A DNA stretch of 34,026 nt, from contig JAKSDJ010000944.1 in the NCBI GenBank assembly GCA_022360155.1, positions 1 to 34,026 on the forward strand. The letters run 5' to 3'. The DNA comes from Chloroflexales bacterium (lineage in GTDB: Bacteria; Chloroflexota; Chloroflexia; Chloroflexales; Chloroflexaceae). Under the pieces are notes generated by a model. It was given only the letters and a program-made list of their open reading frames with translations, did no database searches and was not told the DNA's origin. Positions 14,788-18,163 of this stretch are shown one piece after another. The stretch's first letter is position 1. The number at the start of each line of letters is the position of its first letter. A program made the position numbers and the translations under genes.

Positions 14788-15582
14788 ATGGCTAACGAGT
14801 TTCGTCTCATAGATACGCACACCCATCTTCATGCAGCACATTTTGATGAAGACCGAGCTATAGTGCTGGAACGGGCGGCTGTTGCTGGTGTGGCGCGGAT
14901 TGTCGAAATCGGTTATGACTTAGCATCAAGCCAAGCAGCGCTCGCGCTCGCAGACGATTATCCGCAGATCTTTGCCGTCGTCGGCATCCAGCCCAACCAC
15001 GCTGTCGATCTGCCTCCCGATTGGGTAGATCAGGTGCATAGCTTGGCACATCACCCGAAAGTCGTCGCTATTGGCGAGATCGGATTTGATTATCATTGGA
15101 ATGTGGCATCACCCCAATATCAGGAACAAGTCTTTCGTGAGCAACTATGCCTCGCCCGTGAATTGGAATTGCCTGTGGTCATCCACAGCCGTGACGCTCA
15201 AGCCGATACGATCAGAGTATTGCGCGATGCAGTGACACGTGGCGAAGCGTTGCCACGTGGCATCATGCATTCCTTCTCGGGCGATTGGGCATATGCCGAA
15301 TCCTGTCTTGAAATAGGCTTTTTACTCTCATTCTCGGGTCCAGTTACGTTTCCCAAGGCGAGCAGTTTACACGATGCAGCCTGCCGTGCGCCGCTTGATC
15401 GAATCCTAACTGAAACCGACTGCCCTTATCTCAGCCCGCACCCGCTGCGCGGCAAGCGCAACGAACCGAGAAATGTACGACTGATTACCGAGCGGCTGGC
15501 CGAACTGCGGAACCTGAGTCTAGAGAGCGTAGCGTCCATCATCTGGAACAATGCAAGCAATATCTTTAGATTTTGTGCATAA
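14788..15582 (+). CDS. tatD: TatD-family metal-dependent deoxyribonuclease
   Basis: A 264-residue hydrolase of the TatD family (amidohydrolase-like TIM barrel), a metal-dependent 3'-5' exonuclease on DNA and possibly RNA, acting in DNA repair and quality control. Metal ligands and motifs are in the expected order: DTHTHLH (His11, His13), Glu97 in GEIGFDYHW, His133 in VIHSRDA, His161 in GIMHSFSG, and the TETDCPYLSPHPLRGKRNEP motif near the end. Length matches the family (about 255-265). The ATG is supported by the immediate start of the conserved fold and the promoter directly before it. It is divergent from trkA and about 200 bp upstream of the transglutaminase gene, with a MITE-like element between. 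Confidence 0.94.
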   Translation: MANEFRLIDTHTHLHAAHFDEDRAIVLERAAVAGVARIVEIGYDLASSQAALALADDYPQIFAVVGIQPNHAVDLPPDWVDQVHSLAHHPKVVAIGEIGFDYHWNVASPQYQEQVFREQLCLARELELPVVIHSRDAQADTIRVLRDAVTRGEALPRGIMHSFSGDWAYAESCLEIGFLLSFSGPVTFPKASSLHDAACRAPLDRILTETDCPYLSPHPLRGKRNEPRNVRLITERLAELRNLSLESVASIIWNNASNIFRFCA

Positions 15583-15625
15583 GCAAAGACATAGTAATCA
15601 ATTTCTCTTCCTATTCTCTTCCTAT

Positions 15626-15753
15626 TACTACAACGAGCCATGTCATGCTGCACGACATGACGAATCGCCTGGGAAGCGGGTGCGAGACCCTTCGCGACGC
15701 TCAGGGTGACATCGGCGTTCCAACGAGGTGGGTCGGGAAGTCTCGTTGTAGTA
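15626..15753. mobile_element. 128-bp MITE-like element with 12-bp terminal inverted repeats
   Basis: TACTACAACGAG (15626-15637) and its exact reverse complement (15742-15753) bound a 104-bp non-coding core. Each end has an outer TA, which can be read as a TA target duplication around CTACAACGAG ends, as in Tc1/mariner-IS630 MITEs. CTAT also flanks both sides (15622-15625 and 15754-15757). The core holds CATGTC/GACATG inverted repeats and a CCCTTCGCGACGCTCAGGG segment. On the minus strand that resembles the dispersed TGTCACCCTGAGCG-type repeats I recall from many bacterial genomes. It sits between tatD and tgpA and ends 27 bp before the tgpA -10. No transposase is encoded. Confidence 0.6.
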
Positions 15754-15779
15754 CTATGCACCACATAACTATGTGCCAA

Positions 15780-15802
15780 TATAATAAGTGAACGTTAACG
15801 TT
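15780..15802 (+). promoter_or_regulatory. TATAAT box and 12-bp palindrome at the tgpA start
   Basis: A perfect TATAAT at 15780-15785 is followed by the perfect palindrome AACGTTAACGTT (15791-15802), which lies just before ATG 15803 and just after GTG 15788. Transcription should start at about 15792, within the palindrome. That would make ATG 15803 the real start with an about 11-nt leader, and the palindrome a good place for a repressor. The -35 is weak. Confidence 0.45.
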
Positions 15803-18163
15803 ATGGTACAAGCAACAACTACAATCCGGCGACCGCTGCGTAGCGACCTGTTGACCTTGCTGCCCAGCGTGCTGCTTGCTCTGTTGATGGTCTGGACCGT
15901 TGTTCGTAGCATTGCCGACGCGAACTGGGCGGCAGGTCTCGATGTATTGATTCCGGTCGCGCTTCCCGCCTTGCTGATAGGCGCGCTCTTTGCACGGCTG
16001 CATTGGCTTCCGGGCTGGCTCGCCCACCTGCTCAGCACAGTGCTTGGCTTTGTCTGGACGGTGCAATCGCTTGGAATACTGATGGAAGAGCGCCTCGTCA
16101 CCTGGCGCGACCAAGCAATCGAATTGATCATCCGTACCGTTATCCTCACTCGCATTCTATCTAACGGCGGTCGCGGCGAAGATATTCTGCTCTTCGTCGC
16201 GATATTGGCATTGCTGGCCTGGGCCCTTGGCTATATAACAGCGTGGATGATATTCCGCAAAGGTTGGACGTGGCGTCCCGTTTTGCTCAGTGCCTTCGTT
16301 ATTCTTACAAACTACACATACGTACTCCCCAAGCCCACAACCCTCTTTTTCATCTTTCTGACCTCAGCACTGCTGATTGTGGTCTATCAGAATGTTCTAA
16401 ATCGACAAGAAACCTGGAATGCATCACAGATCGAATATCCTGAGTTTCTGCCACTGCGCTTTGTCTGGGCCGCCGCGCTCGTTTGTGGTACGGTTATTCT
16501 AATCACGAGCCTATTTCCTAGCCGCATTTCCAGTGAACAAGTAGCCGCAGCTTGGAAAACCATGAGTCTGCCATTTACGCTAGCTCGTGAACGATGGGAA
16601 GATGCCTTTAGCACTATCAATGCACCGCCCGGCGTTACAACCGGCGGCAGCTTCACCGCAAGAACTTCAGCCCTCGGTGGGGCGCGCAGCCTTGGAGACA
16701 AAGTGTTATTACATATTCGTTCAAGGGAAGCGGGATACTGGCGCACTGTCACCCGCGATCACTATACCGATGGCCTCTGGCAAAATACCACCGGCGAACA
16801 GGCCCGCGATGCCCTCAATGCGAGCACGCCGGAGGGGGCGCGCACCGCCCTCGATCCAGGAACGTTATTATCATATAACGATGTCCGCGCCCGCAACCCT
16901 ATCGAGCAAGTCGTTGAGATGACTGACGATCGCAAGGATGATTTGATTGTGAGCAACGGCGAAGTCCTCGAAGCAAGCTTGCCCATCCTTGTTGAACACA
17001 ACTACCTGGTTGACGACCAGAACCGCCTCATTCCTAATTTTGACGATACAGCCTTGATTGTTTCGCAGGAACCATTGCGGGCTGGTATGGTCTACACCGT
17101 AACAGCGCTGGTCTCTAATGCTGATGTTCAGAGTCTACGCCAGGCTGGCTCCGATTATCCAGATTGGATCCGGGAGCGCTATGTACAAATCCCCAATACC
17201 ATTACTGAGCGCACATTAGCTACAGCGCAAGAGATCGTCGCAGAAGCAAATGCGACCAATGCATACGACAAAGCAATCGCGATCCAGAACCACCTACGCA
17301 CTTTCACCTATAACGATCAGATTAGCGCGCCTCCCTTCGGCGTCGAGCCAATCGACTATTTTCTCTTCGATTTACGCGAGGGCTACTGTGACTATTACGC
17401 CTCGGCGATGGTTATTATGCTTCGCTCACTCGATGTGCCGGCGCGCCTTGCTATTGGCTACGCTGAAGGATACCTTGACCCCGACCTCGGCGCCTACGTC
17501 GTGCGCGAAAATGTGACTCACACTTGGCCGGAGGTCTACTTTCCCGGCTTTGGATGGGAGCGTTTCGAGCCAACCCCCGCCAGTTATACGAGTTTGCCTG
17601 ACCGCCCAACTACCCCCCCAGCATATGCTGAAGACGATGATTTTGCGGTCGGGAGCGGCTTGGGCGAAGGCTTGACCCACCCTGATGACGAGCTTGACCT
17701 GGGCCTGGAAATCGATGACTCGATAGGAACCGGGGGTACTCTGCCTGAAGAGCCGCTCAACTGGACGACCATCCAGCGCAGACTAGCAATCTTAGGCATT
17801 TTTATCGGAATAATAGGGTTGATGATATATGCGCTTGTTTTACGCTGGCGCTACGAACTGCATGGACTGAGCAGCGCGGCATCGGCCTACGCACGGCTCA
17901 CGTGGTTGGCTGGCTGGGCGGGTCTCCCCAAGCAGCCCCAAAGCACACCGTACGAATATGGCGGCGAGCTTGCCCAAGCGTTGCCCCAACATCGCCGTGC
18001 ACTTACTCGTATCATTAACGCCTACGTTGAAGAACAGTACCAAACTGGACCAAAAGGCCGCAAACGGAACTTCGAGCCAGATCTTAGCATGGTACGTCGC
18101 TCCTTGCTCGAACGCATGATCAGGCAGCTTGGCAGCGTGGTACATCGAATGAAACCAAACTAG
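15788..18163 (+). CDS. TgpA-type membrane transglutaminase-like protease
   Basis: A 791-residue membrane protein of the TgpA type. Hydrophobic segments between about residues 20 and 245 form the N-terminal membrane domain (DUF3488-like), then a long extracytoplasmic part, a transglutaminase core, a single membrane segment at about 667-690 and a cytoplasmic tail similar to DUF4129. The core shows catalytic Cys534 in REGYCDYYASAMVIMLRSLDVPARLAIGY and His578 in VTHTWPEVYFPGFGWERFEPTP. The usual acidic third residue of the triad (normally Asp in DPTP) is Glu594 here. Such proteins are often encoded with a MoxR ATPase and a DUF58 protein; neither is adjacent. GTG at 15788 opens the frame, but the promoter geometry favours ATG 15803. 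Substrate is unknown; a cell-envelope protein is likely. Confidence 0.88.
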   Translation: MNVNVMVQATTTIRRPLRSDLLTLLPSVLLALLMVWTVVRSIADANWAAGLDVLIPVALPALLIGALFARLHWLPGWLAHLLSTVLGFVWTVQSLGILMEERLVTWRDQAIELIIRTVILTRILSNGGRGEDILLFVAILALLAWALGYITAWMIFRKGWTWRPVLLSAFVILTNYTYVLPKPTTLFFIFLTSALLIVVYQNVLNRQETWNASQIEYPEFLPLRFVWAAALVCGTVILITSLFPSRISSEQVAAAWKTMSLPFTLARERWEDAFSTINAPPGVTTGGSFTARTSALGGARSLGDKVLLHIRSREAGYWRTVTRDHYTDGLWQNTTGEQARDALNASTPEGARTALDPGTLLSYNDVRARNPIEQVVEMTDDRKDDLIVSNGEVLEASLPILVEHNYLVDDQNRLIPNFDDTALIVSQEPLRAGMVYTVTALVSNADVQSLRQAGSDYPDWIRERYVQIPNTITERTLATAQEIVAEANATNAYDKAIAIQNHLRTFTYNDQISAPPFGVEPIDYFLFDLREGYCDYYASAMVIMLRSLDVPARLAIGYAEGYLDPDLGAYVVRENVTHTWPEVYFPGFGWERFEPTPASYTSLPDRPTTPPAYAEDDDFAVGSGLGEGLTHPDDELDLGLEIDDSIGTGGTLPEEPLNWTTIQRRLAILGIFIGIIGLMIYALVLRWRYELHGLSSAASAYARLTWLAGWAGLPKQPQSTPYEYGGELAQALPQHRRALTRIINAYVEEQYQTGPKGRKRNFEPDLSMVRRSLLERMIRQLGSVVHRMKPN

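Follow-up and report, generated by a model that had tools for sequence, protein, structure and literature searches.

Introduction

Bacterial MITEs are known from other insertion sequence families, an example being MITEPye1, which has IS1182-like ends (PMC11578231), and RUP, NEMIS and Nezha are also listed among them (PMC3733652). The same source describes GTAG- and CGTC-tagged kinds of REP palindrome (PMC3733652). Members of the IS701 family are 1400-1550 bp in length and generate a 4-bp target duplication (PMC2266710, Table 1 for the duplication). We found no description in the literature of a MITE family driven by IS701, and no relevant paper on either the end or the core sequence of the element considered here.

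This element is a 128-bp non-coding segment (positions 15626-15753) located between tatD and a tgpA-like gene in a 34,026-nucleotide stretch of DNA from a Chloroflexales bacterium, referred to below as the window. It belongs to a family scattered through its genome and marked by IS701 ends and NTAN target duplications of 4 bp. We put at roughly 85% the probability that it is a non-autonomous MITE with these ends and duplications that would have been mobilised in trans by IS701, and whose core would represent REP-like cargo.

Results

Organisation of the tatD-tgpA spacer

The features of the locus are collected in Table 1. The initial annotation had reported two exact 12-bp terminal inverted repeats enclosing a 104-bp core, with CTAT on both sides; all of these are present, and CTAT constitutes a 4-bp target duplication. 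The limits that it assigned to the element are exact, since the alignment of copies and the 48-copy count described below both indicate that the repeat proper stops at the 12-bp ends. The window holds no other perfect 12-bp inverted pair at 60-300 bp spacing. Taken alone the pair is nevertheless weak evidence, because when the window was simulated 60 times with a first-order Markov model, 21 runs held at least one such pair, and the significance of the element therefore derives from its copies and ends genome-wide. No Rfam match was found in the window. An 11-bp tandem duplication (TTCTCTTCCTA, two copies at 15603-15624) extends as far as the insertion and shares bases with the left target duplication.

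Table 1. Features of the element and its surroundings (window coordinates)
Feature	Position	Strand	Basis or remark
Upstream neighbour tatD (TatD DNase, PF01026)	14788..15582	+	
Left target duplication copy, CTAT	15622..15625	.	Sequence; identical 4-bp flanks in 34/48 genome copies
Left terminal inverted repeat, TACTACAACGAG	15626..15637	+	Identical to IS701 element ends
Non-coding core, 104 bp	15638..15741	.	Alignment of copies
Core half 1, GTCA-footed palindrome, two departures from pattern	15642..15666	+	
Core half 2, GTCA-footed palindrome GTCACCCTGAGCGTCGCGAAGGGTC, perfect pattern match	15686..15710	-	Recurs in other element types and relatives
Right 17 bp (TACTACAACGAGACTTC on minus)	15737..15753	-	Same as one end of the IS701 elements L105 and L133
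Right terminal inverted repeat, reverse complement of TACTACAACGAG	15742..15753	-	
Right target duplication copy, CTAT	15754..15757	.	Sequence; genome-wide flank count
TATAAT, possible -10 box of downstream gene	15780..15785	+	26 bp from element; no full sigma-70 match
Downstream neighbour tgpA-like gene (transglutaminase core and DUF4129)	15788..18163	+	Start may be ATG 15803

The TATAAT hexamer previously proposed as a -10 box for tgpA is present, although the spacing is one base shorter than the 27 bp claimed. A consensus scan of 15400-16000 detected no full sigma-70 promoter and no terminator, and the creation of either by the element was discounted on this basis. In the region 15788-15805, mechanical calling places the tgpA start at a GTG 2 bp downstream of TATAAT; the ATG at 15803 is a likelier start and would render the tgpA transcript nearly leaderless. 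The element may uncouple tgpA from tatD.

Copies and target duplications

The window's own assembly (8.93 Mb in 1048 contigs) was searched at the DNA level, as the initial annotation had set as a test, and yielded several dozen copies: there are at least 40 (40 scored matches to the element), and the exact 15-bp end TAGTACTACAACGAG occurs 76 times, compared with none for the reversed control. Members of this dispersed family range from 128 to 205 bp and the window copy is complete. Some longer copies (L147, L149, L159 and L170, 158-205 bp) have additional palindromes nested in the core, one or two per copy, each about 24 bp long and of the CCCTGAGCGCAGCCGAAGGGC type.

Among 48 distinct complete copies the left and right 4-bp flanks are identical in 34, compared with a permuted mean of 10.9 and a maximum of 21 in 20,000 permutations; with CTAG/CTAG copies removed, 17 of 31 still agree (permuted mean 4.3, maximum 13). 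No copy shows agreement at 3 or at 5-8 bp and only one does so at 2 bp, while 14 of the 48 have no perfect 4-bp duplication. The duplications have the form NTAN (CTAG, CTAA, TTAG, ATAG, CTAC and CTAT). A target duplication of constant length, as expected of a MITE, is found in 34/48 copies. When the flanks were joined across each element and open frames then crudely called, 3 of 32 copies fell inside frames, compared with 19.9 expected from target-like tetramers of the same loci.

The tatD-tgpA spacer was also compared in relatives, as had been proposed. The two genes are adjacent in the 26 relatives that have both on the locus, and an end within two mismatches is absent from the spacer in all 26, these spacers being too diverged to reveal a base-exact empty site. 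The original classification of the segment as a MITE is supported by its many copies, its intact inverted ends and target duplications, its position between genes, its lack of coding capacity and its absence from relatives' spacers.

The 15-bp end is present in 14 of 61 genomes searched, all 14 belonging to the taxonomic family of the window, whereas none of the 24 searched genomes that represent other families of the order has it. Elements identical between loci, some of them in named records (L049/L113, L048/L118), would point to Chloroflexaceae as the family in question. Within the genomes searched the full window element is confined to its own genome. Short elements with window-type ends in other genomes contain different cores, mostly with NTAN duplications, and 19 other genomes of the same taxonomic family match the core but not the complete element.

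Terminal sequences shared with IS701

In relatives the same end starts both genes and short elements. For example, the 418-residue product encoded behind the end at L043 is an IS701 transposase (NF033540, E 1e-105; PF13546, E 1e-60), and the extended locus (L068, from a genome of the same family) is a 1574-bp element with exact 12-bp ends on both sides and TTAG/TTAG flanks. A scan of named genomes identified three additional IS701 elements: L133 in the Anaerolineaceae MAG NAT123, likewise from Chloroflexota (1501 bp, exact ends, CTAG/CTAG), L105 in the cyanobacterial Leptolyngbyaceae MAG MO_188.B28 (1490 bp, exact ends, with TTAG on the left and CTAA on the right, which is not a direct repeat) and L136 in the Anaerolineae MAG fen_1038 (1634 bp, TTAG/TTAG, one mismatch in the right end). 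All four transposases match NF033540 at E 1e-96 or better. The window element shares 12 terminal bp with L068 and 16-17 bp with L105 and L133; its right 17 bp recur unchanged as ends of the latter two. Relative to the published IS701 end consensus ---YACT-Y--YR, which according to PMC2266710 is not representative of the whole family, the element has TACT 3 bp nearer the duplication.

The window's own assembly yielded no IS701 element with exact ends. The best IS701 of this genome (C193) has ends TATTACAACGCG with 10/12 matches, GTAA/GTAA flanks and a broken gene; the other IS701 genes found are diverged, interrupted or partial, and the unpaired ends that were fetched in search of an intact IS701 proved to be MITEs, contig edges or chance matches. 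Because the resident genes are in this condition, the identity of the partner transposase is deduced from other genomes.

Transposases of the IS5 group duplicate YTAR, some of them generating 4-bp duplications of this type, and the observed targets CTAG, CTAA, TTAG and ATAG are close to this pattern, but terminal identity of up to 17 bp with IS701 elements from two phyla makes mobilisation by an IS5-group enzyme improbable. No IS5 element with such ends was encountered in the searches, which were directed at IS630 and IS701.

The GTCA-hairpin core

Two palindromes that face each other make up the core, both of the pattern GTCA-NN-CT-GA-N-(5)-N-GA-AG-NN-TC. The minus-strand segment GTCACCCTGAGCG, which the initial annotation had likened to a dispersed repeat, does indeed recur in other element types and in relatives. 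In loci of the window's own genome the outer NN dinucleotides can pair with each other in 62 of 74 cases, against a permuted mean of 26.0, and fall into three types of pair, CC/GG, TT/AA and TG/CA; in relatives complementarity is observed in 43 of 46 (permuted mean 18.2), kinship among the loci being uncontrolled in both counts. The core thus has the fixed foot, conserved hairpin and facing pairs that characterise REP/BIME sequences. None of the 11 loci of RAYT-type (Y1_Tnp) genes in the same genome holds the palindrome, and a RAYT partner was accordingly rejected.

Could the repeat have been kept and spread as a functional structure, in the manner of REP/BIME-like hairpins in mRNA or DNA, with transposition incidental or ancient? 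Conservation of pairing through three stem types would suit this explanation, as would the intergenic location of the copies and the observation that both strands of the element fold better than shuffled sequences (z -2.5 and -3.6). However, the three stem types may represent few lineages, so that the pairing does not amount to many independent events, and the intergenic bias is equally explained by purging of gene-disrupting copies. No terminator-like site was detected in the region scanned around the element, and the intact 4-bp duplications show that copies arrived by transposition. We thus see little prospect for a purely structural explanation, and retain a MITE with IS701 ends as the preferred reading.

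A core enclosed by different ends

We read 77 distinct GTCACCCTGAGC sites in the own genome, of which 35 lie in elements of the window's type and 14 in a second type, a short family with ends TACCAATTCGA that encloses the same core (L200-L217, L175-L182 and further loci of G000). The second-type ends TAATACCAATTCGA occur 18 times exactly, compared with none for the control. A third type, also with this core, accounts for others of the 77 sites and has ends TATCAAATCT, a length of 126-127 bp and TCA or TTA flanks (L168, L224, L227 and L238). Since the flanks of the second and third types are mostly 3-bp and TNA-like (TAA/TAA, TTA/TTA, TGA/TGA, TCA/TCA), these types probably belong to another transposition system. 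A few hybrids with one end of each type also occur (L180, L207, L215, L213 and L232); on visual inspection, matching 3-bp flanks are limited to L232, which would fit recombination as the origin of most of them.

Variation in the enclosing sequences is also observed in the core loci that were read in relatives (L271-L290). In G001 the core is found inside ends TACCAAACGA in four of five loci, in G064 and G003 it lies within the inverted ends GCAGAAGTAACGC and AGGGCTGATGCAACGTCC respectively, and in G035 it is bare. It is conceivable, at somewhat less than even odds in our estimation, that the pair of GTCA palindromes spreads independently and has entered many unrelated MITE families (the 4-bp NTAN IS701 type, the 3-bp TNA types and those with other ends in relatives), as a single cargo that would be associated with several transposition systems and give hybrids by exchange through the core. 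We found no description in the literature of a core common to elements with different ends.

Discussion

The least credible alternative is the assignment first made, to an IS630/Tc1-mariner MITE with a TA duplication: TA is present on either side and the genome has two IS630-type (DDE_3) genes, but a TA duplication is excluded because the flanks match over 4 bp, in that register only, the bases outside TA agreeing left to right (position 1 in 41/48 copies, position 4 in 43/48), and a search for an IS630-family transposase with matching ends returned only those two genes, which have other ends and no match to the element ends nearby, whereas the ends of IS701 elements are identical. The TA initially read as a duplication is the middle of NTAN, the true duplication being CTAT.

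Under the IS701 assignment, a DDE transposase of this type supplied in trans would have bound the 12-17 bp ends and moved the element, inserting it between tatD and tgpA at a CTAT cut with a 4-bp stagger. The core may first have been dispersed on its own, as a REP-like pair of facing hairpins, and have become cargo between IS701 ends later; exchange through the shared core would account for hybrids with elements whose ends are of another type. In the own genome the autonomous partner appears to have been lost, to have decayed or to be unassembled.

These observations are clear evidence, at the sequence level, for a MITE family driven by IS701 and correct the transposase assignment. A single hairpin core within several unrelated sets of transposon ends would illustrate the way in which non-autonomous elements swap cargo, and it prompts one to ask which agent disperses the core.

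Compared with known systems, the element resembles IS630/Tc1-mariner MITEs in being short, with TA in its target and inverted ends, but its duplication is 4 bp and its ends are not those of the IS630 genes of its genome. Like REP/BIME sequences, it presents a hairpin that is short, has a tetranucleotide foot that does not vary and occurs in facing pairs scattered through intergenic DNA, although the foot is GTCA, none of the RAYT-type genes of the genome has the palindrome nearby and the pair lies inside transposon ends. It resembles the bacterial MITEs MITEPye1, RUP, NEMIS and Nezha in that all are short, non-coding, intergenic and foldable, with IS-like ends and target duplications; in contrast to these, the element has IS701 ends and a core common to elements with other ends. 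It differs from the IS701 family itself (NF033540, PF13546) in having no transposase gene, in its length of 128-205 bp rather than about 1.5 kb and in a core that, as far as seen, is not derived from an IS701 gene, yet its 12-bp ends are identical to those of IS701 elements from a genome of its own family, from an Anaerolineaceae MAG and from a cyanobacterial MAG, and the 4-bp NTAN duplication is likewise shared.
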